A stretch of 32,215 nucleotides of DNA, from assembly GCA_947626485.1 (NCBI GenBank), contig CANQSG010000003.1, forward strand, positions 1 through 32,215, written 5' to 3'. Position numbers and translations under genes: made by a program. Positions 777 through 12,112 of the stretch are shown piece after piece. The notes under the pieces are model-generated. The model ran no database searches and was not told the DNA's origin. It worked only from the letters and a program-made list of their open reading frames with translations. This DNA comes from an uncultured Clostridia bacterium. GTDB lineage: Bacteria; Bacillota; Clostridia; Oscillospirales; Acutalibacteraceae. Each line of letters starts with the position of its first letter. Position 1 is the first letter of the stretch.

Positions 777-2083
777 ATGGCAGACATTCGCGATTCCAAA
801 AACTGGAGTTTTGAAACCAAACAGCTCCACATCGGACAGGAGCAGGCCGACCCGACGACCGACGCGCGCGCGGTGCCGATCTACGCCTCGACCTCCTTCG
901 TTTTCCACAGCGCGCAGCACGCCGCCGACCGCTTTGCGCTCAAGGACGCCGGCAATATTTACGGCCGCCTGACCAACCCGACGCAGGACGTTTTCGAGCA
1001 GCGTATCGCCTCGCTCGAGGGCGGCGCTGCGGCGCTGGCGACGGCGTCGGGCGCGGCGGCGATCCATTACACCATTTCAGCCCTCGCGAAATCCGGCGAG
1101 CACATCGTGGCGGCCAAGACGATCTACGGCGGCACCTATAACCTCCTCGCCCACACCCTGCCGCTTTCCGCGGGCATTACGACGACCTTTGTCGACCCAG
1201 ACGAGGCAGGCGCGTTTGAAGCCGCCGTGCAGCCCAACACCAAGGCGATCTTCGTCGAGACGCTGGGCAATCCGAATTCCAATATCATCGACATCGAGGC
1301 CGTCGCCGCCGTCGCCCACAAGCACGGCATTCCGCTCGTCATCGACTCGACCTTCGCGACGCCCTATCTCATCCGCCCGATCGAGCACGGCGCCGACATC
1401 GTCGTCCATTCGGCGACGAAATTCATCGGCGGGCACGGCACGGCCATCGGCGGCGTGATTGTCGACGGCGGCAGCTTCGACTGGAAGGCGTCGGGCAGGT
1501 ATCCGTGGATCTCCGAGCCCAACCCGAGCTATCACGGCGTTTCTTTCGCCGAAGTCGCGGGTCCGGCCGCCTTCGTCACCTATATCCGCGCGATTCTGCT
1601 GCGCGACACCGGCGCGACCCTCTCGCCCTTCCACGCGTTTTTGTTCCTGCAAGGGTCGAGACCCTCTCGCTGCGGGTCGAGCGGCACGTCGAAAACGCGC
1701 TGAAGATCGTGGATTATTTAAACCGCCACCCGCAGGTCGAGGCGGTGCATCACCCGTCGCTGCCGACCGAGCCGAGCCACCCGCTGTATCAAAAATATTT
1801 CCCGCAGGGCGCCGGTTCGATCTTCACCTTCGAGATCAAAGGCGGCAGCGCGGCGGCGACGAAGTTCATCGACAACCTGGCGATCTTCTCGCTGCTCGCC
1901 AACGTCGCCGACGTGAAGTCCCTCGTGATCCACCCCGCCAGCACGACCCACGCCCAGCTGACCGAGGAGGAGCTCGCCGAGCAGGGCATTCGCCCCGGCA
2001 CCATTCGGCTTTCGATCGGCATCGAGGCGGTCGACGACCTGATCGCGGCGCTCGACGCGGCCTTTGCGGCGGTCAAGGACTGA
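777..2083 (+). pseudogene. O-acetylhomoserine aminocarboxypropyltransferase/sulfhydrylase (PLP, Cys/Met metabolism family), interrupted by a single frameshift near 1653-1657
   Basis: Frame of 777 encodes FETKQLHIGQEQADPTTDARAVPIYASTSFVF...YGRLTNPTQDVFEQRIASLEGG...HSATKFIGGHGTAIGG...LSPFHAFLFLQG; homology continues in the frame of 1505..2083 (ETLSLRVERHVENALKIVDYLNRHPQVEAVHHPSL...VKSLVIHPASTTHAQLTEEEL). One missing base in CAAGGGTCGAG restores QGLETLSLR. Confidence 0.85.
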
Positions 2084-2107
2084 CCTGTTTTCGCAACCCG
2101 ACCCTTT

Positions 2108-2149
2108 CCCGGGCGCCCGGACGCAACCCGTTCCGGCGCCCGGGTTTTT
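2108..2149 (+). terminator. Rho-independent terminator after the sulfhydrylase gene
   Basis: Perfect 10-bp stem cccgggcgcc (2108-2117)/ggcgcccggg (2135-2144) followed by ttttt. Confidence 0.85.
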
Positions 2150-2191
2150 ATGATGTATGTTTTTGAAAAAGGCAGGTGTGTTTTTGGGGGC

Positions 2192-2220
2192 TTGCAATCC
2201 GGCGGCGGCTTTGGTATAAT
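2192..2220 (+). promoter_or_regulatory. Sigma-A type promoter driving the riboswitch/B12 operon
   Basis: TTGCAA (2192-2197), 17-nt spacer, TATAAT (2215-2220), with extended -10 TGG (TGGTATAAT). Confidence 0.8.
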
Positions 2221-2274
2221 AACCGTGGACAGGCTGCCGATCTGGGTGCCTGCCGGACAACTGAATCCGAACGG

Positions 2275-2479
2275 AAAATACGGTTTGAAAAGTTGTACGC
2301 TGAGTAGATGTAAAAGGGAATCCGGTTCGAATCCGGAACAACCGCCATTACTGTATTTGACGGACGACGGGCGCAAAAATCCATTGGGCGGACGCGGTAG
2401 CGATGCCGGCCGCCTGAGAAGGAGCGTTCGCCGGCGGTAAGCGCCGCCATGTCATAAGTCAGGATACCTGCCGTATTTT
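2275..2479 (+). promoter_or_regulatory. Cobalamin (adenosylcobalamin-type) riboswitch aptamer
   Basis: B12-box-like agtcaggatacctgcc (2457-2472; compare AGYCMGgAgACCkGCC), core taaaagggaatccgg...ccgccattactgt (compare GGGAA...CCGCTACTGT), and closing P1 helix aaaatacgg (2275-2283)/ccgtatttt (2471-2479). Downstream genes are an ECF transporter and DUF4430 proteins. Confidence 0.88.
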
Positions 2480-2499
2480 CTTGGGTTTTTCACAACTTT

Positions 2500-2566
2500 G
2501 GTGAGAAGCGTGTAACCGATGTTCGCTGCAAAAAACGGCGCCCGGATTGCGCTTCTCGCTTTTTTT
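2500..2566 (+). terminator. Riboswitch expression-platform terminator 1
   Basis: gtgagaagcg (2501-2510) pairs with cgcttctcgc (2550-2559), extendable by G-U pairs; inner hairpin cgctg/cggcg; followed by 7 T (2560-2566). Confidence 0.7.
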
Positions 2567-2613
2567 ACGCAGTCCGCCCGCCGAGCTTTGCCACACGCGA
2601 AATCATCAGTTAC

Positions 2614-2647
2614 ACGCTCTCGACCGAAGGGTTGAAAGCGTTTTTTT
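2614..2647 (+). terminator. Riboswitch expression-platform terminator 2
   Basis: cgctctcgacc (2615-2625)/ggttgaaagcg (2630-2640) with GAAG loop, one mismatch and one G-U pair, followed by ttttttt (2641-2647). Confidence 0.7.
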
Positions 2648-2672
2648 GTTGCGGAAAAGAGGTGTGCGGGAG

Positions 2673-2957
2673 ATGACGCAGGAGGAAAAAACGCGCTGGG
2701 CGGCAGCGTGTTTGCGGCAGAAACAGGCAGAACTGGGTCGGCTGCCGCGCAAGGAGGATTTTGATGCGCCCACGCGCTCGCGCATCAAAGCGTTTTTAGG
2801 TCCCTGGCCGCGCGCGCTCGAAGCGGCGGGGCTCAAACCGGCTCGCAAACCCCGGGCGGAGCGGACGCATCGGCACAAACGCCGTCCGTCCGACACGCAC
2901 AACGAGAGCCGGGAAAAACACGATCGGGAGGAATCTTCATGCAACAAAACAGAATAA
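2673..2957 (+). CDS. Small protein with homing-endonuclease-associated-repeat (HNH_repeat)-like domain
   Basis: ATG at 2673; MTQEEKTRWAAACLRQKQAELGRLPRKEDFDAPTRSRIKAFLGPWPRALEAAGLKP matches the LGRxPxxxDF...I...FGxWxxALxAAGL pattern; 3' end overlaps the next start. Confidence 0.55.
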   Translation: MTQEEKTRWAAACLRQKQAELGRLPRKEDFDAPTRSRIKAFLGPWPRALEAAGLKPARKPRAERTHRHKRRPSDTHNESREKHDREESSCNKTE

Positions 2958-5920
2958 AATTCGCGGCGCGGCGCGGTCTGCGGGTCGCCCTCGCCGCCGC
3001 CGTCGCCCTCGTTCTGGCCGCCGGAACGCTGATTTTGCCATCGAATGCGGCGGACGCCTCGGTTTTCGCGGGGTACGCGTCAAAGTCGGCGGCGCTCGAG
3101 GACTGGATCGCGGCGGCGGTCGACAGCGCGAAGGCGCACAACGGCCTGTCGTCCGGCGATTCGCTGCTCGGCAGCGAGGCGTTTTGCGCCGGCGCGAGCT
3201 CGACCGACACCGATTGGATGGCGATGGCGATGGCGCGGTTTTCGCGCGCGGACGGCACGCCCTGCCTCGACGACGGCGACGGCTACGCGCGGTATCTCGC
3301 CGCGATGCGCGACTTTTTGACCCAAACCTATGCCGAAAAAAACGGCCTGCTGCACCGCGTCAAGGCGACGGAATGGCACCGCGCGGCGTTGACGGTCGCG
3401 GCGCTCGGCGGCGATGAAACGGCCTGCGGCGAATGGAACGGCGCGCCGATCGACCTGCTCGCCGACGGGGTGTATCAATGCGACCGCCTGTCCGCCGGAC
3501 CGGGCGGGCAGGGCATCAACGGCTGGCTCTGGGGGCTGCTCGCCCTCGACGCGCATCTTACCCCCGTTCCCGCCGACGCGCGGTTTACGCGGGCGGACTA
3601 TATCACGCAAATTCTCGCACATCAGACGGCGGACGGCGCGGACGGCCGACCCTTCGGCGGCTGGTCGCTGGGCGGCGTGACGGCCGACCCCGACCTGACG
3701 GCGATGGCGTTGCAGGCGCTCGCGCCCTATTACAACGACGAGACGGTTTATACCTATGAAGACGCCGCCGGGCAGACGGTTGCCCGGACGGTGCGGCAGA
3801 GCGTCGACGACGCCATCGCCAAATCGCAGGCGCTGCAAAACGCCGACGGCGGCTTCACCTCCTGGGGCTCGGGCAACATCGAGAGCGTCGCGCAGGTGGT
3901 GACGGCGCTGTGCAGCCTCGGCATCGACCCCGCGACCGACCCGCGTTTTGTGACGCCGGCCGGCAAGACGCCGCTCGACGCCCTGCTGCAATACCGGCTT
4001 GCCGACGGCGGCTTCCGCCATGTGGCGAGCGGCGGCTGGAACGCGATGGCGACCGATCAGGCGACCTATGCGCTCGTCGCCTGCTGGCGGCTTGAGAACG
4101 GCATGCGCGCCCTCTATGATATGCGCCCCGCCCCGACGGCCGAAGTGCAATCAGCGGTCGCGGCGGCCAAGGAAGCCATCGCGACCCTGCCCGCCCCCAC
4201 CGACCCGACCTACCGCGCCGCGCTGCGCGAAGCCCTGACCCGCTGCCGCGCGGTGCCGGAGTCCGAACGCCGCTACATCTATCACTACGCAACCCTCGCC
4301 GCCGCGATCGAACAGGTCGGCGGGGAGGACGCCCTGACCGGCACGACGCCCTTTGCCGTTTCGCTCGCGGTGACGGTGCTGCCGACGAAAACGGACTACA
4401 CGGCGGGCGAGACCTTTGACCCCGCCGGCATGGAGCTGACGGCGACCTTCAGCGACGGCAGCCGCCGCGTCCTTACCGACGGCTGGCAATTTGCCCCCGC
4501 TGACGCCCTGCAGGAGCGCGACACGGTAATCACGCTGACCTACGGGGCGCTGCAGACGACGCTTTCCGTCACGGTGCGTCCCGCCCCGGCTGCCGACGAC
4601 CTTTCGATCGGCACGGCGGCGGAGCTCGAAGCCTTTGCCGCGCGGGTCAACGGCGGTGAATCCTTTGCCGGGCGCACCGTCCGGCTGACCGCGCCCATCG
4701 ACCTCGGCGAGATCGAGGACTGGATCCCCGCCGGTCGGACGCAGACCTGCGCCTTTGCAGGCGTGTTCGACGGGCAGGGCTATGCCATTGAGAATCTGCA
4801 TTCCACGACGGGCGGCCTGTTCGGGTACGTCGCGAACGCGGCGGTGCTGCGAAATATCCGGCTGCGCAGCGGGGAGATCCGCGCGGCGTACGAGAGCTTT
4901 GTCGGCGGGATCGCCGGCTGGAGCGACGGCGCCGATTTTGTGAATTGCAGCAACGGCGCCGACCTCTTCGACGGCAACTACGTCGGGGGTATCGTCGGCA
5001 CGGTGCGTTTCGGCGGCGACAGCGTGATCTCCGGCTGTTACAACACCGGCGCGATCACGACCGGCGGCGGCAACATCGGCGGCATCGTCGGCCACCTCGG
5101 CACGGGTTACGGCGCAGACGCCCCGCGCGTGACGATCGAAAACTGTTACAGCACCGGGGCGATCACGGCGGATTACTTCGTCGGCGGCATCGTCGGTCGC
5201 GCGCAGGACGGCCACACGCTGCGCAACTGCTATCAGGTCGGGGCGATCGCGAGCTCGTCCGACAGCGTTGAAGTCGGCGGCGTCCTCGGCTTATGCACCA
5301 AAGGGGTGACGGTCGAAACCTGCTATTTCTCGTCCGACGGCTGCAAAACCGGTATCGGATTTACGCGGGGCGACGACACGACCGTCGGGCAGGCGACCGC
5401 CGCGTTTTTCACCGACGATTTCCGCGCGGCGCTCGGCAGCGCTTTTCGGGCGGATCGCTACGGCTTTGAAAACGGCGGCTATCCGCTGCTCTACTGGCAG
5501 ACGACGCAAACCGCCGACGCGGTCGACGACGTGATCGCCAAAATCGCCGCCATCGGCGTCGTGACGCGCGAAAGCGCCCCCGCCATTCAGGTGGCGCGGG
5601 AAGCGTATGACGCCCTGCCGGAAGCGGCGCGGGCGGCGGTCGAAAATTACGAAACGCTCGAAGCCGCCGAGGCGACCTTCGCGGCGCTGCCGCCGGAAGA
5701 AACCGGCGAAGAGGGCGAAACCCCGCCGGAAAAGGACGAAACGAATTCCGGCGCGAGCGGGAGCGAAAATTTGAATCAAAGCCAGAATCAGAATCAAACC
5801 GATAGCGCGGACGCACAAATACCGGCGATGGGGGAGAAATTGCCGGTCGGCGGGTTGGTGCTGCTCGGCGCGAGCCTTGTTCTGCTGGCGCTTTGCCGCA
5901 GGGGGCTGCGGACGCGCTGA
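2939..5920 (+). CDS. Secreted, C-terminally anchored surface protein: terpenoid-cyclase-like alpha/alpha barrel + Ig-like domain + GLUG repeats
   Basis: N-terminal signal peptide; prenyltransferase/squalene-oxidase-like repeats (GINGWLWGLLALDA, DLTAMALQALAPYY, NADGGFTSWGSGNIESVAQVVTAL, LADGGFRH); Big_3-like Ig (TKTDYTAGETFDPAGMELTATFSDGSRRVL); GLUG-like repeats (FVGGIAGW, YVGGIVGT, NIGGIVGHL, FVGGIVGRA); C-terminal LPVGGLVLLGASLVLLALCRRGLRTR. RBS ggagg upstream of ATG. Confidence 0.85.
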   Translation: MQQNRIKFAARRGLRVALAAAVALVLAAGTLILPSNAADASVFAGYASKSAALEDWIAAAVDSAKAHNGLSSGDSLLGSEAFCAGASSTDTDWMAMAMARFSRADGTPCLDDGDGYARYLAAMRDFLTQTYAEKNGLLHRVKATEWHRAALTVAALGGDETACGEWNGAPIDLLADGVYQCDRLSAGPGGQGINGWLWGLLALDAHLTPVPADARFTRADYITQILAHQTADGADGRPFGGWSLGGVTADPDLTAMALQALAPYYNDETVYTYEDAAGQTVARTVRQSVDDAIAKSQALQNADGGFTSWGSGNIESVAQVVTALCSLGIDPATDPRFVTPAGKTPLDALLQYRLADGGFRHVASGGWNAMATDQATYALVACWRLENGMRALYDMRPAPTAEVQSAVAAAKEAIATLPAPTDPTYRAALREALTRCRAVPESERRYIYHYATLAAAIEQVGGEDALTGTTPFAVSLAVTVLPTKTDYTAGETFDPAGMELTATFSDGSRRVLTDGWQFAPADALQERDTVITLTYGALQTTLSVTVRPAPAADDLSIGTAAELEAFAARVNGGESFAGRTVRLTAPIDLGEIEDWIPAGRTQTCAFAGVFDGQGYAIENLHSTTGGLFGYVANAAVLRNIRLRSGEIRAAYESFVGGIAGWSDGADFVNCSNGADLFDGNYVGGIVGTVRFGGDSVISGCYNTGAITTGGGNIGGIVGHLGTGYGADAPRVTIENCYSTGAITADYFVGGIVGRAQDGHTLRNCYQVGAIASSSDSVEVGGVLGLCTKGVTVETCYFSSDGCKTGIGFTRGDDTTVGQATAAFFTDDFRAALGSAFRADRYGFENGGYPLLYWQTTQTADAVDDVIAKIAAIGVVTRESAPAIQVAREAYDALPEAARAAVENYETLEAAEATFAALPPEETGEEGETPPEKDETNSGASGSENLNQSQNQNQTDSADAQIPAMGEKLPVGGLVLLGASLVLLALCRRGLRTR

Positions 5921-5957
5921 ATCGGCTGCGAAAACGGGACGAAAGGAGGGGCGCGGA

Positions 5958-8354
5958 ATGCGAATTTTCAAGCAAATCGAAATTTTCCTGTGCCTGTGCG
6001 GCGTGCTGTTCGGGAGTTTTTGCGCGCCTGCCGCGGCTGACGCGGCGGTGGGTGAAGTGACGATGAGCGTCGAGGCCTTTTCGATCGGCTGCGGCTACCT
6101 CGTCGAGCCGACGCGGCTGTCCTTCTACGCGGGCGAGACCGACGCTGACCTGCTGCTGCGGCTGCTGCGGCAAAACGGCCTTGCGGCCTTTTACGGCGGC
6201 ACGACGAAGGCGGGATTTTACCTCGCCTACCTCGCCGACGGCGACGCGTCCGCCGCCGACGCGCCGGATTATCGCAAGAGCGAGACCCCGCCGAATCCCC
6301 GCGCGCTCGGGCTGCGCCCCGCGATCCCCGCCCTGCTGACGCCGCACCTGAAACGGACGATGACCTATTTCGCGCCGGACGACGCGAAAAATTGGCCGGG
6401 ACTGCTCGGCGAGTTCGTCTTTACAAACGGGTCGGGCTGGATGTACTGCGTGAACAACGCCTTTCCGAACGTCGGCTTTGCCGACAAAAAGCCGGCGGAC
6501 GGCGAGGTCGTGCGGGTGCAGTTCACGCTGGCCTACGGCGCGGATATCGGCGGCGCGGCGGCGGTCGGGCAGCTGTCCGGCGGGTCGGTCGGGGCGTTTT
6601 ATGCCGTCGCCGACCGGGACGCCCTCACCCGCCAACTCTGCCGCGCCTACGCCCTGCCGCAGGCCGAGCGGGACGCCCTCGGGCAGCCGCTGCGCGAGGC
6701 GCTCGACGCCATGGCGGCGCTCGACGCGAAGCAGAGCCGGGTGGACGCGGCGGCAAACGCGCTTTCCCGCGCCCTGACGACCCCGGCGGGACAGACGACG
6801 GTTTCCAAACCATCCGCCGCGAGCGGGTCGACTGTCTCTGCGGTGACCGGGAGCACGACGTCCGGGACGCGCCCGGCGCAATCCTCGGCGACCGCCCCCG
6901 CCCCGACCGGGCAGGGCAAGACCGCGCCCGACGCGGCGACCTTCCGCGCCCTTGCGGAGGGGATCATCCGATGGAAAAAGGCGCAGCTCGGGCTGGCGGC
7001 CGACGAAAACCTGCTGTCCGGCGACTTTCTCGCGTCGGCGGGGTCGACGGCGGGGGACTGGTTCCCCTTCGCGCTCGGGCGGCTCTGCGTTTCGGACGAT
7101 TTTGCCGCCTATCGCGCCGCGCTGCGCGAACAGGTCGAGGCGCGCTACCGCCGCCCGGGCAAGCTCAGCGCGGCGAAGGCGACGGAATGGCACCGCATCG
7201 CCCTCGCGGTGCTGGCGACCGGCGGCGACCCGACGGCCTTCGGCGACGACGCGGACGGGCGACCCATCGACCTGATCGCCGACGGGGTCTATGACCGCGG
7301 CAAGACGACGCCGCTCGGCAGGCAGGGCATCAACGCCTACCTCTGGGGGCTGCTCGCCCTCGATGCCGCCGGCTGCCCCGTCCCGACCGACGCCGCCGAC
7401 ACGCGCGAGACAATGCTGTGCGAAATCCTGCGCCGCCAGCTGCCCGACGGCGGCTTCGCGCTGCAGGGCACGGTCGCCGACGTCGACCTGACCGCCATGG
7501 CGGTGCAGGCGCTCGCGCCCTATTACAAAGAAAACAACGCCGAGCTGACCCGCGCCGAGGCGCAGGCGGGGCGGACGGTGCGGCAGTGCGTCGACGCCGC
7601 CCTCGCCTGCCTGTCCAAATTGCAGGAGGCCGACGGCGATTTTGTCAGCTGGGGCAGGCGCAACGCCGAGAGCACCGCGCAGGTGATCATCGCGCTGTGC
7701 TGCCTTAGCGTCGACCCGCTGACCGACCCGCGCTTTGTGACGCCGACCGGCAAGACGCTGCTCGACGGGCTGCTGCGCTACCGGCAGGCCGACGGCGGCT
7801 TTGCCCACGCCTATAGTTTCGACCCCGAAAACCCCGACGCGGCGCCCGGGCAGTCGAACAGCATGGCGTCGGAGCAGGCGCTTTGCGCCCTCGCGGCGCT
7901 CTGGCGGCGGGCGCAGGGGCTTTCTTCGCTCTACGATTTCCGCGGGGCGGAAAAAACTTCTGATACGGCAATCGGCTCCGAAGCCGACCGCGCGGCAGCC
8001 GCCGCCCGACAGGCCGCGATCGACGCCCTGAACGCCGACCTGCTCGCGCTGCCGCCGCTCGAGAAACTCTCCTTGCGCGACCGCCCGCGGGTGCGCGCCC
8101 TGCTCGCCCGCTACCGGGCGCTGGACGAAGCCGACCGCGCGCAGATCGAAAACGCGCAAATCCTCGAACAGGCGGCGGCAAAGCTCGACGGCAGCCTGCG
8201 GGCGCTCCTCGTCGGAATTTTTGCCTGCCTCGCCGCCGTCGGGCTCGGCGTTTTTCTCATCTTCGACCTGCGCCGAAGACGCCGGGCGCGGGCATTGCGA
8301 GACGCCGACGCGTTTTCGCCCGACGACCCGGACGAGGGGGCGCATACGGAATGA
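5958..8354 (+). CDS. Secreted, membrane-anchored DUF4430 + terpenoid-cyclase-like alpha/alpha-barrel protein (intrinsic-factor-like modules)
   Basis: ATG at 5958 with RBS aaaggagg; signal peptide; DUF4430-like GSGWMYCVNNAFPNVGFADKKPADGEVVRVQFTLAYG; barrel repeats paralogous to the preceding protein; C-terminal TM helix LLVGIFACLAAVGLGVFLIFDLRRRRR. Confidence 0.85.
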   Translation: MRIFKQIEIFLCLCGVLFGSFCAPAAADAAVGEVTMSVEAFSIGCGYLVEPTRLSFYAGETDADLLLRLLRQNGLAAFYGGTTKAGFYLAYLADGDASAADAPDYRKSETPPNPRALGLRPAIPALLTPHLKRTMTYFAPDDAKNWPGLLGEFVFTNGSGWMYCVNNAFPNVGFADKKPADGEVVRVQFTLAYGADIGGAAAVGQLSGGSVGAFYAVADRDALTRQLCRAYALPQAERDALGQPLREALDAMAALDAKQSRVDAAANALSRALTTPAGQTTVSKPSAASGSTVSAVTGSTTSGTRPAQSSATAPAPTGQGKTAPDAATFRALAEGIIRWKKAQLGLAADENLLSGDFLASAGSTAGDWFPFALGRLCVSDDFAAYRAALREQVEARYRRPGKLSAAKATEWHRIALAVLATGGDPTAFGDDADGRPIDLIADGVYDRGKTTPLGRQGINAYLWGLLALDAAGCPVPTDAADTRETMLCEILRRQLPDGGFALQGTVADVDLTAMAVQALAPYYKENNAELTRAEAQAGRTVRQCVDAALACLSKLQEADGDFVSWGRRNAESTAQVIIALCCLSVDPLTDPRFVTPTGKTLLDGLLRYRQADGGFAHAYSFDPENPDAAPGQSNSMASEQALCALAALWRRAQGLSSLYDFRGAEKTSDTAIGSEADRAAAAARQAAIDALNADLLALPPLEKLSLRDRPRVRALLARYRALDEADRAQIENAQILEQAAAKLDGSLRALLVGIFACLAAVGLGVFLIFDLRRRRRARALRDADAFSPDDPDEGAHTE

Positions 8355-8905
8355 AAAAGGACATTCTGGCGCTTTTTGCCGTGTTCCTGCTGCTCGCCGT
8401 GCTCGTCAACGGGACGCGCATTCAGTCGGTCGAGGAATACTATCTGCTGCACCTCGACGATATCACGCCCGAAAGCGAGACCGTGACGTTGAGCATCCGC
8501 TGCGACACGGCGCTCGCCGCCCGCGACGACCTCGACCCCGCGCTGCGTGATGCCGACGTCCTGCCCGCCGACGGCGTGATCCTGCCGCCGACGCAGTACG
8601 TCCTGCGCGCGGGGGATTCGGTCTTCGATATCCTGCGCCGGGCGGTGCGCAGCCGGCGGATTCAGATGGAGTATCAGGGCGCCGACCGCAGCGCCTTCGG
8701 CAGCGTTTACGTGCAGGGGATCGGGTATCTCTACGAATTCTCCTGCGGGCCGCTGTCGGGCTGGATGTACCGCGTGGACGGCGTCTTTCCGCAGTACGGC
8801 TGTTCGAATTATCTGCTGCACGACGGCCAGACCGTCGAATGGCTCTACACCTGCGACCTCGGCCGCGACGTGGGCTGCGCCTGGAAGGTGGGGAAATTGA
8901 ATTGA
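8351..8905 (+). CDS. Membrane-anchored DUF4430 domain protein
   Basis: ATGA overlap with previous stop; N-terminal hydrophobic helix LALFAVFLLLAVLVNG; DUF4430 signature YLYEFSCGPLSGWMYRVDGVFPQYGCSNYLLHDGQTVEWLYTCDLGRDVG. Confidence 0.8.
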   Translation: MKKDILALFAVFLLLAVLVNGTRIQSVEEYYLLHLDDITPESETVTLSIRCDTALAARDDLDPALRDADVLPADGVILPPTQYVLRAGDSVFDILRRAVRSRRIQMEYQGADRSAFGSVYVQGIGYLYEFSCGPLSGWMYRVDGVFPQYGCSNYLLHDGQTVEWLYTCDLGRDVGCAWKVGKLN

Positions 8906-9783
8906 ATGCCTTTGCCGCCTATCACCCGACGGTGCTGCTGACCTATTTTCTGTCGGTGCTCGTCGTCTCGATGTTCGCCCTGCACCCGGTGCTGCAAGCC
9001 GCGGCGCTGCTCGGCGGGCTGGTCTTCTGCGCGCTGCTGCAAAGCCGCCGCCGCACCGCCGCCGACCTCGCCTTTTACCTCCCGCTTTTCCTGCTCATCG
9101 CGGTGACGAACCCCCTCTTTTCCCACAACGGCGTAACGCCCCTCTTTTTCCTCAACGGCAACCCCGTCACCCTCGAAGCGTTGCTGTACGGCGTGCAGAT
9201 CGCTTTAATGCTCGTCGGGGTGCTGTTCTGGTGCAAATGCTACAGTAAGGTCATGACGACCGACAAATTCCTCTATTTGTTCGGTAGAGTCATCCCGAAG
9301 CTCGCCCTCGTGCTCTCGATGGCGCTGCGCTTTCTGCCGCTCTTCCTCCGCCGGGCGCGGGAGGTGCGGCGGGCGCAGAAGACGCTCGGGCTGCTCGCCG
9401 CGAAAAGCCGGGTCGACCGCATTCGGGGCGAAATGCGGGTCTTCCTCGCCGTGATCTCCTGGTCGCTCGAGCACGCGATGGCGCTCTCGTCCGCGATGAA
9501 GGCGCGGGGTTACGGGCTCAAAGGAAGAACACAGTTCTCGCTGTTTCGGTTCACGCCGGGCGACGGGGTGCTGCTCGGCGTCAGCCTCGCCCTGTTTGGG
9601 CTGACGCTGGCCGGCATGGCGACGGGCGCGACCCGCTTCGCGTATTATCCGCGGTTGACCGCCCCGCCCGCGTCGCCGCTCGGGCTGCTCGCGCTGTGCG
9701 CCTTCGCCGTGCTCTGCGCGCTGCCCGCGATTTTGGAAGGGAAGGAGTGGCTGACATGGAGCTTTTGCAAATCGAAAATCTGA
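8902..9783 (+). CDS. ECF transporter T component (CbiQ/EcfT-like)
   Basis: Likely TTG start at 8902 (TTGA overlap); polytopic membrane protein; FGRVIPKLALVLSMALRFLPLFLRRAREVRRAQKTLG and AMALSSAMKARGYGLKGRT, consistent with the EcfT coupling motifs (Ala-Arg-Gly core). Confidence 0.85.
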   Translation: MNAFAAYHPTVLLTYFLSVLVVSMFALHPVLQAAALLGGLVFCALLQSRRRTAADLAFYLPLFLLIAVTNPLFSHNGVTPLFFLNGNPVTLEALLYGVQIALMLVGVLFWCKCYSKVMTTDKFLYLFGRVIPKLALVLSMALRFLPLFLRRAREVRRAQKTLGLLAAKSRVDRIRGEMRVFLAVISWSLEHAMALSSAMKARGYGLKGRTQFSLFRFTPGDGVLLGVSLALFGLTLAGMATGATRFAYYPRLTAPPASPLGLLALCAFAVLCALPAILEGKEWLTWSFCKSKI

Positions 9784-11441
9784 CCTTTCGCTATCCCGGC
9801 GCCGAGGCCGACGCGCTGCGGGGGATCACGCTGACCGTGCGGCAGGGGGAATTTCTCGTGCTGTGCGGCGAATCGGGCTGCGGCAAGACGACGCTGCTGC
9901 GGCTGCTCAAGCGCGAGCTCGCCCCGGCGGGCAAGCGCGGGGGCGAAATTCGATATCGCGGCCGGTCGCTCGAAGCCCTCGACGCGCGCACCTCGGCGGC
10001 ACAGATCGGCTTTGTCCTGCAAAATCCGGACGAGCAGATCGTGACCGACAAGGTCTGGCACGAGCTGGCGTTCGGGCTCGAAAACCTCGGGCTGCCGACC
10101 GGCGTCATTCGGCGGCGGGTCGGGGAGATGGCGAGTTATTTCGGCATTCAGGACTGGTTCCGGCGGGAGACGGACGCCCTTTCGGGCGGGCAGAAGCAGC
10201 TGCTCAACCTCGCGTCGGTGCTCGTCATGCAGCCGAAGCTGTTGCTGCTCGACGAGCCGACCGCCCAGCTCGACCCCATCGCCGCCTCGGAATTTTTGCA
10301 GACCCTCTATAAGCTCAACCGGGAGCTGGGGCTGACGATTTTGCTCGTCGAGCACCGGCTCGAGGAGGCCTTCCCCCTCGCCGACCGGGCGGTGCTGCTG
10401 GAAGCGGGCAGGGTGCTCGATTGCGACGCGCCGCGTCGGCTCGGGCGGGCGCTGCAAACGCGGGAGCATACCCACCCGATGTGCTGCGCGCTGCCGAGCG
10501 CCATGCGCATCGCCCACGCGCTCGGCGCCGTCGAGCAAAGCCCGCTGACGGTGCGCGAGGGGCGGGATTTTCTCGAAGCTCGCTTTGCCGCGTCGGCGCA
10601 GGCACAGCCGCAAACGCAGCCGGAAATCCCGCCCGAACCGGACGACGCCGCCCCGGCGATCGAGCTGAAAAACGTCTGGTTCCGGTATGAAAAGGAGCTG
10701 CCCGACGTGCTGCGCGGCGTGACGATGGCGGTGCGGCGGGGGGAATTTTACTGCATCCTCGGCGCGAACGGCACCGGCAAAACGACGGCGTTGCAGGTCG
10801 TCGCCGGGCTGCGCCGCCCCTATCGCGGCGCGGTGCGCATCGACGGCAAACCGCTGAAAGCCTACGGCGGCGGCGCGCTCTACCGCGGCAAGCTCGCCCT
10901 GCTGCCCCAAAATCCGCAGACCCTCTTTTTGCAGGACACGGTGCGCGCCGACCTCGACGAGCTGCTCGCCTTGCGCGGGGTCGAAAAAGAAGCGCGCGAA
11001 GCGCAAGTTAAAGCGGTCGCCGCGCGGGTGGGTGTCGAACCGCTGCTCGACCGGCACCCGTTCGATTTAAGCGGCGGGGAGCTGCAGAAATGCGCCCTCG
11101 CAAAGCTCCTGCTGAGCGCGCCGGAAATCCTGCTGCTCGACGAGCCGACCAAGGGGCTCGACGCCTTTGCAAAGCAAAAATTGACCGCCCTGCTGCGGGG
11201 GCTGTGCGACGACGGCGTGACGCTGCTCGCCGTGACCCACGACGTCGAATTCGCCGCCGAAAACGCCGACCGCTGCGGCCTCTTTTTCGACGGGGAACTG
11301 CTCTCCGATGACCGTCCGCAGGCCTTTTTTGCGCAGAACCATTTTTACACGACCGCCGCCAACCGCATGGCGCGGGGGCTCTGGCCGGACGCCGTCACCT
11401 GCGCGCAGGTCGTCGCCCGCTGTCGGGAGGCAAAGCCGTGA
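9756..11441 (+). CDS. ECF transporter fused A-A' ATPase (two ABC domains)
   Basis: ATG at 9756; two Walker A motifs (GESGCGKTT, GANGTGKTT), two signatures (LSGGQKQLL, LSGGELQKC), two Walker B (LLLLDEPTAQLDP, ILLLDEPTKGLDA). Confidence 0.92.
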   Translation: MELLQIENLTFRYPGAEADALRGITLTVRQGEFLVLCGESGCGKTTLLRLLKRELAPAGKRGGEIRYRGRSLEALDARTSAAQIGFVLQNPDEQIVTDKVWHELAFGLENLGLPTGVIRRRVGEMASYFGIQDWFRRETDALSGGQKQLLNLASVLVMQPKLLLLDEPTAQLDPIAASEFLQTLYKLNRELGLTILLVEHRLEEAFPLADRAVLLEAGRVLDCDAPRRLGRALQTREHTHPMCCALPSAMRIAHALGAVEQSPLTVREGRDFLEARFAASAQAQPQTQPEIPPEPDDAAPAIELKNVWFRYEKELPDVLRGVTMAVRRGEFYCILGANGTGKTTALQVVAGLRRPYRGAVRIDGKPLKAYGGGALYRGKLALLPQNPQTLFLQDTVRADLDELLALRGVEKEAREAQVKAVAARVGVEPLLDRHPFDLSGGELQKCALAKLLLSAPEILLLDEPTKGLDAFAKQKLTALLRGLCDDGVTLLAVTHDVEFAAENADRCGLFFDGELLSDDRPQAFFAQNHFYTTAANRMARGLWPDAVTCAQVVARCREAKP

Positions 11442-12112
11442 AACGCGTGATGCTGCGCTGCATTTTCTGCGCGGCGCTGCCCGCCGTCGTCGTGGGCGGC
11501 GCCCTGCTGTTTCGCGAACGGCATTACGCCTTTGTCTCGCTCGCCGTCGCGCTGCTCGCCCTTTTCGCCTTTTTCCTGCGGTTCGAACGCGCCGCGCTCG
11601 ACGTCCGCCGCCTTGTGCTCCTCGCGGCGCTGACGGCGTTGAGCGTGACCGGCCGCATGCTCTTCGCGCCGCTGCCCGGGTTTAAGCCCGTGACCGCGAT
11701 GGTCGTGATCACCGGCGTGGCCTTCGGCGGCGAGGCGGGCTTTCTGACGGGCGCGTTTTCGGCGCTGCTCTCGAATTTTTATTTCGGGCAGGGCCCCTGG
11801 ACGCCCTTTCAGATGCTCTGCTGGGGGCTCATCGGCCTCGCCGCCGGACGATTTTCGGGGATTTTGCGCCGTTCGCCGCCGGCGCTCGCCGTCTGCGCGG
11901 TGCTCTCGGGCGTCGCCTATTCCTGCGGCATGGACGTCTGGACGGTGCTCTGGGCGGATGGCGGCTTCTCTTTGTCCCGCTATTTCGCCGCGCTCGCTTC
12001 CTCACTGCCCTTTACGGCGGTCTACGCCCTTTCGAACCTGCTCTTTTTGCTGCTCTTCGCCCGCCCGATCTGGCGGATTTTGGATCGTTTTCGGCAGAAA
12101 TACGCCCTGTGA
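11438..12112 (+). CDS. ECF transporter S (substrate-binding) component; cobalamin predicted from the riboswitch
   Basis: Overlaps previous stop; multi-TM protein with GRMLFAPLPGFKPVTAMVVITGVAFGGEAGFLTGAFSALLSNFYFGQGPWTPFQMLCWGLIGLAAG typical of ECF S components. Confidence 0.8.
   Translation: MKRVMLRCIFCAALPAVVVGGALLFRERHYAFVSLAVALLALFAFFLRFERAALDVRRLVLLAALTALSVTGRMLFAPLPGFKPVTAMVVITGVAFGGEAGFLTGAFSALLSNFYFGQGPWTPFQMLCWGLIGLAAGRFSGILRRSPPALAVCAVLSGVAYSCGMDVWTVLWADGGFSLSRYFAALASSLPFTAVYALSNLLFLLLFARPIWRILDRFRQKYAL

Follow-up and report, generated by a model that had tools for sequence, protein, structure and literature searches.

A corrinoid riboswitch leader of gut Clostridia with a probable composite platform: two terminators in series on one P13 strand, of opposite predicted ligand sign

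Mutational work on corrinoid riboswitches has set out two platform layouts (Procknow et al. 2023, PMC10653944): when the 3' strand of P13 pairs with the 5' side of the terminator the riboswitch represses, and when the 3' strand of P13 is itself the 5' side of the terminator it activates, a type of which one natural example was known before. In the repressing metE leader of Priestia megaterium, P13 forms the kissing loop and is destabilised by an internal loop that is needed for switching, and there is one terminator, with none inside the antiterminator loop; the activating cobT leader of Alkalihalobacillus halodurans also has one terminator, and controls the cobT gene (both PMC10653944). Two termination decisions per leader are made by tandem riboswitches, in which two complete TPP or AdoCbl switches are joined (reviewed in PMC2258182), and the rimP-leader has a second terminator in tandem with its first, together with a potential anti-terminator (Naville and Gautheret 2010, PMC2965389).

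The window, by which we mean the whole stretch of 32,215 nucleotides analysed here from an uncultured Clostridia bacterium (contig CANQSG010000003.1), contains a leader at 2227-2660, between a promoter-like site (2192-2220) and an operon start at 2673, in which, by layout, an activating terminator (T1) and a repressing terminator (T2) stand in tandem on one P13. As in P. megaterium metE, P13 carries the kissing loop and, destabilised by an internal loop, is weak by itself, but here a terminator lies inside the antiterminator loop. It differs from A. halodurans cobT in that a second, opposite-type terminator follows and in its genes, which are for probable uptake; from the rimP-leader, which is unrelated in sequence, in having a cobalamin aptamer; and from tandem riboswitches in that both terminators are served by a single aptamer and by a strand common to the two. 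We consider it probable, at roughly 0.6, that the leader is a single cobalamin (corrinoid) riboswitch whose platform is composite, T1 and T2 acting one after the other and responding to ligand with opposite signs. No corrinoid riboswitch with such a composite, two-terminator or band-pass platform was found in the literature searched, most subscription papers and bioRxiv preprints being outside its reach. The features are as follows.

2192-2220, forward strand: sigma-70-like promoter TTGCAA-17-TATAAT with extended TG, from a consensus scan; the sole promoter-like site in 1800-3400
2264-2489, forward strand: cobalamin riboswitch aptamer, assigned to RF00174 at 78.3 bits against a gathering score of 31.5
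2343-2347, forward strand: kissing-loop bases CGCCA of L5, complementary to L13
2484-2517, forward strand: P13, an irregular helix found in most relatives too; constrained fold -4.2 kcal/mol
2501-2566, forward strand: terminator T1, activating-type layout, from the hairpin fold; conserved in relatives
2503-2621, forward strand: long antiterminator (AT), 2503-2521/2604-2621 with inner helices, from the MFE and covariation
2505-2518, forward strand: X, common to P13 (3' side), T1 (5' side) and the antiterminator (5' side), read directly from the sequence
2614-2647, forward strand: terminator T2, repressing-type layout; hairpin 2614-2641, U7 2641-2647
2673-2957, forward strand: first gene, a 94-aa protein with one HNH_repeat (PF18780, E 1.9e-10)
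2939-12112, forward strand: regulated operon of a Big_3/GLUG surface protein, two DUF4430 proteins, CbiQ/EcfT, a double ECF ATPase and an ECF S component

A scan of the genome bin (about 86% complete) gave no RF00174 member besides this aptamer, and the operon downstream of this B12 riboswitch is a probable vitamin B12 uptake operon of a gut Clostridia bacterium. Directly 5' of the aptamer a stable hairpin, GGACAGGC...GCCUGCCGG, was observed at 2227-2254; its 3' arm, CCUGCCG, is a copy of the start of the aptamer 3' P1 strand.

A first set of 132 leaders, the window included, was taken from the family, and further leaders were collected with the L13-X motif from genomes of the family and then from GTDB species genomes, mostly metagenome-assembled Clostridia of animal guts. 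At least 96 leaders shared the P13 strand, and among the matches listed 77 remained once near-duplicates were removed; these relatives are not independent, and X is partly fixed by the search pattern used to collect them. Leaders are given below as L numbers and genomes as G numbers.

The hairpin at 2484-2517 is P13, stabilised by the kissing loop upon corrinoid binding. Its pairs are GGUU 2484-2487/AACC 2514-2517, CAC 2491-2493/GUG 2510-2512 and CUU 2496-2498/AAG 2506-2508, and its loop, L13, is UGGUGAG (2499-2505), in which UGGUG (2499-2503), 3' of P1, is complementary to the CGCCA of L5. This pairing, as UGGYG x CGCCA or as a GGCG/GGUG x CGCC/CACC variant, was present in nearly all 77 listed relatives, one of which carried a compensating change; within P13, paired changes were seen in L132 (AUC/GAU), L073 (ACU/AGU) and L057 (UGU/GCA). 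By itself P13 was weak in the leaders folded (about -2 to -7 kcal/mol). X has three partners, each excluding the other two and each pairing conserved among relatives, which are transcribed in the order P13 5' strand, T1 3' arm, T2 5' arm.

The arms of T1, GUGAGAAGCG (2501-2510) and CGCUUCUCGC (2550-2559), are followed by U7 (2560-2566), and the hairpin folded at -27.1 kcal/mol (z = -3.2). X serves as its 5' arm, which is the activating layout. Because X is the 3' strand of P13, and because T1 of the window also takes the GUG of the kissing loop, T1 and the ligand-bound fold exclude each other; T1 is therefore expected to form without B12, and on these grounds it should be a terminator of the ligand-free state that corrinoid relieves. 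T1 was better than undocked P13 by 5-13 kcal/mol in 18 T1-bearing leaders, in folding energies that ignore tertiary contacts and kinetics.

In 61 of the 77 listed relatives a U-run was directly preceded by a T1 duplex at or below -13 kcal/mol, as compared with 15% of shuffled spacers. In the earlier leader set the corresponding values were p = 0.007 for the window and, with the window left out, a Fisher p = 3e-10, probabilities not to be taken literally given the kinship among leaders. X and the T1 arm covaried at two positions among the listed relatives: at position 5 of X, a C (window, L186, L200) faced G in 3/3, beside 60 A-U and two G-C pairs, and position 11 gave A-U 28 times, G-C nine times and G-U three times. 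These pairs were counted from duplexes, as a MAFFT alignment set the T1 arms out of register, and a generic terminator scan over the 132 leaders was too loose and went unused.

A different account would make T1 a ligand-independent attenuator that merely lowers the maximum, leaving regulation to T2. In L071-like relatives most of T1 (GAGUGCAACC/GGUUUGCAUUC) would survive the shrinking of P13 to CUU/AAG, which speaks for this account, but T1 of the window directly excludes L13 docking and T1-only leaders would become unregulated aptamers, and we regard it as very unlikely. A P13 shrunk to CUU/AAG could also coexist with a shorter T1 in some relatives, which counts against the composite platform; for the window this is excluded, T1 taking the L13 bases.

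T2 (hairpin 2614-2641) folded at -15.7 kcal/mol (z = -4.3). The 5' arm of T2 pairs with X in the long antiterminator, whose core, AGCGUGUAAC (2507-2516)/GUUACACGCU (2609-2618), has 10 contiguous pairs and is flanked by GAG(A) and GAUG/CAUC. The MFE of the whole platform was built around this helix (z = -4.7 and -4.4), with nested inner helices that include CGGAUUGCG (2543-2551)/CGCAGUCCG (2568-2576), in the loop of which lie most of the T1 3' arm and the T1 U-run. Over 16 distinct rows 89.3% of cells were paired and 8 of 14 pairs were changed on both sides; 0/500 shuffles were as good, and slid controls scored far lower. The long helix is thus a conventional antiterminator of T2, and this repressing layout, in which the 3' side of P13 pairs with the 5' side of the terminator, predicts that T2 is induced by corrinoid.

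A sequence-only reading of this DNA had proposed that the long helix (2503-2521/2604-2621) disables both terminators, and that one switch gating the two would give an unusually tight OFF state. The two terminators (T1 2501-2559 and T2 2614-2641, each with U7) were confirmed, and so was the helix, 10 contiguous pairs and flanks, exactly as it had been described; the helix excludes both T1 and T2, with which it shares X and the T2 5' arm, formation of T1 does leave that arm free, and the folding and covariation checks which that reading had called for bore the helix out within a platform larger than it had seen. The disabling of both terminators held for T2 alone. The distal strand begins at 2604, about 40 nt past the T1 release point at 2560-2566, and being transcribed after release it is unable to protect T1; AT therefore gates T2 only. 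A coupled OFF state calls for the ON helix to be available before the first terminator acts, and 2604-2621 lies downstream of 2560-2566. By the rules of Procknow et al. (2023) the two layouts imply opposite ligand signs, against a single tight OFF state.

The double OFF account can still be stated in full: T1 and T2 would both be ligand-induced, and the long helix would prevent both without B12. Every pairing for it exists, T1 formation frees the T2 5' arm, and T1-only and T2-only relatives control similar operons, as if interchangeable. It is nonetheless quite unlikely in our judgement, as the distal strand is made too late for T1, the 5' arm of T1 takes in bases of P13 and, in the window, kissing bases of L13, and comparison of the relatives gave no conserved upstream partner other than P13 that would hold X off T1 without ligand. 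When a conserved element of the aptamer that might sequester X from upstream was sought, the best duplex reached -12.8 kcal/mol as compared with -12.2 kcal/mol for shuffled sequence, with no recurring element. A window hairpin, GUUUUUCAC (2485-2493)/GUGAGAAGC (2501-2509), with a fold of -9.6 kcal/mol, was considered as a T1 antiterminator and rejected as a general gate, being unconserved in relatives and burying L13.

AT was better than P13 by 3-20 kcal/mol, mostly about 15, in T1-bearing leaders, and T2-only leaders mostly had the same margin; the idea that, on thermodynamic grounds, AT would override ligand-bound P13 in T1-bearing leaders alone was rejected accordingly. In the window AT reached -72 kcal/mol against -43 kcal/mol for T1 plus T2, so that exchange from T1 to AT would be downhill. 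This suits a plain repressing riboswitch in which the T1 hairpin terminates little, pulls X from P13 and holds it until the T2 5' arm arrives, its U-run serving as a pause site. L190, L252 and L253, in which a T1-like X-complementary arm has little or no U-run, are in keeping with it; their pattern suggests either that the terminator has decayed or that the hairpin does something other than terminate, and since the latter may be so they also weigh against the composite platform. On the other hand, 38 of the 69 listed leaders with a T1 arm had 6-8 U among the next nine bases, the window hairpin (-27 kcal/mol, U7) resembles a strong terminator, and T1-only leaders exist; we find the holding role rather unlikely.

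Among the 77 listed non-redundant leaders, 58 scored T1 together with AT/T2, 10 had AT/T2 without T1, eight had T1 without a scored AT and one had neither, several of the eight (e.g. L184, L199, L261) showing a shifted antiterminator by eye. The composite layout, as judged from sequence, recurs in dozens of related genomes. T1-only leaders (L102, L186/L225, L226, L251) came from at least four lineages, and RF00174 was present in L186, L226, L251 and L102; T2-only leaders were L166, L168, L171, L132 and L057. Two leaders of this P13 type per genome occurred as L166/L167 (G323, contig 65, 3 kb apart) and L168/L169 (G288), in each case one T2-only and the other with a T1 arm. The sole other genome of the genus searched (G001) has a cobalamin leader, L002, whose platform is of another kind and shows a single obvious terminator; conservation of the composite therefore does not extend across the genus. 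L210 and L218, both leaders of the Clostridia type, come from one record under the name Alistipes sp. (NALB_7813_19), which is probably misnamed or a metagenome bin of mixed origin.

Where checked, DUF4430 surface proteins, EcfT and ECF ATPases lay downstream of T1+T2 leaders and of one T1-only leader or more, while T2-only leaders were followed by EcfT-like or HNH_repeat genes. Similar operons of the surface-protein/ECF type downstream of both T1-only and T2-only leaders would be unexpected if the two had different signs, and this counts against the composite platform: either one half of a band-pass was lost in particular lineages, or T1 may not have the sign that its layout predicts. The first gene after many leaders, as in the window, encodes a small homing-endonuclease-associated-repeat protein (L071, L059, L140, L152, L156, L158, L165, L166, L170 and L171). 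By a rough motif it followed 34 of 74 listed leaders, 29 of 56 with T1+T2 and 2 of 10 without T1; this protein could be a nucleic-acid-binding partner.

From these pairings we infer that T1 and T2 terminate in vivo, the ligand sign of each and the net dose response. With ligand, L5-L13 kissing would lock P13, T1 would be blocked, and X would be unavailable to the antiterminator, so that T2 stops transcription. Without ligand, X would leave P13 and meet the T1 3' arm first, and T1 would stop a fraction of polymerases; in those that pass, the T2 5' arm would capture X in the long helix, T2 would be blocked and the uptake operon read. A weak T1 would then give a repressor with a capped maximum, and an efficient T1, with exchange of ligand or docking between the two decision points, an expression peak at intermediate B12. 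In a two-checkpoint calculation with assumed parameters, a T1 of about 50% efficiency yielded a repressor with its maximum halved; T1 at 90% efficiency or more, with bound and unbound states exchanging over seconds between the two terminators, yielded a bell-shaped output; and two efficient terminators with no exchange were nearly always off.

The net output may thus be that of a capped repressor, a band-pass or an activator, among which sequence alone cannot choose. With an efficient T1 ahead of T2 a plain repressor has a lower maximum, and that such a T1 is conserved needs a reason, a further point against the composite platform. One tentative possibility, which we hold to be rather unlikely, is a natural single-aptamer band-pass, widespread in gut Clostridia, in which ligand relieves T1 and induces T2 and the uptake operon is on mainly at intermediate corrinoid.

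Gut Clostridia appear to carry the activating layout commonly, in most cases together with the repressing one on a shared strand. The natural T1-only, T2-only and T1+T2 leaders form a comparison set for the change of sign of a platform, and are suited to asking whether one aptamer can give a non-monotonic response; they also have a bearing on the way in which gut bacteria regulate their uptake of this contested vitamin.
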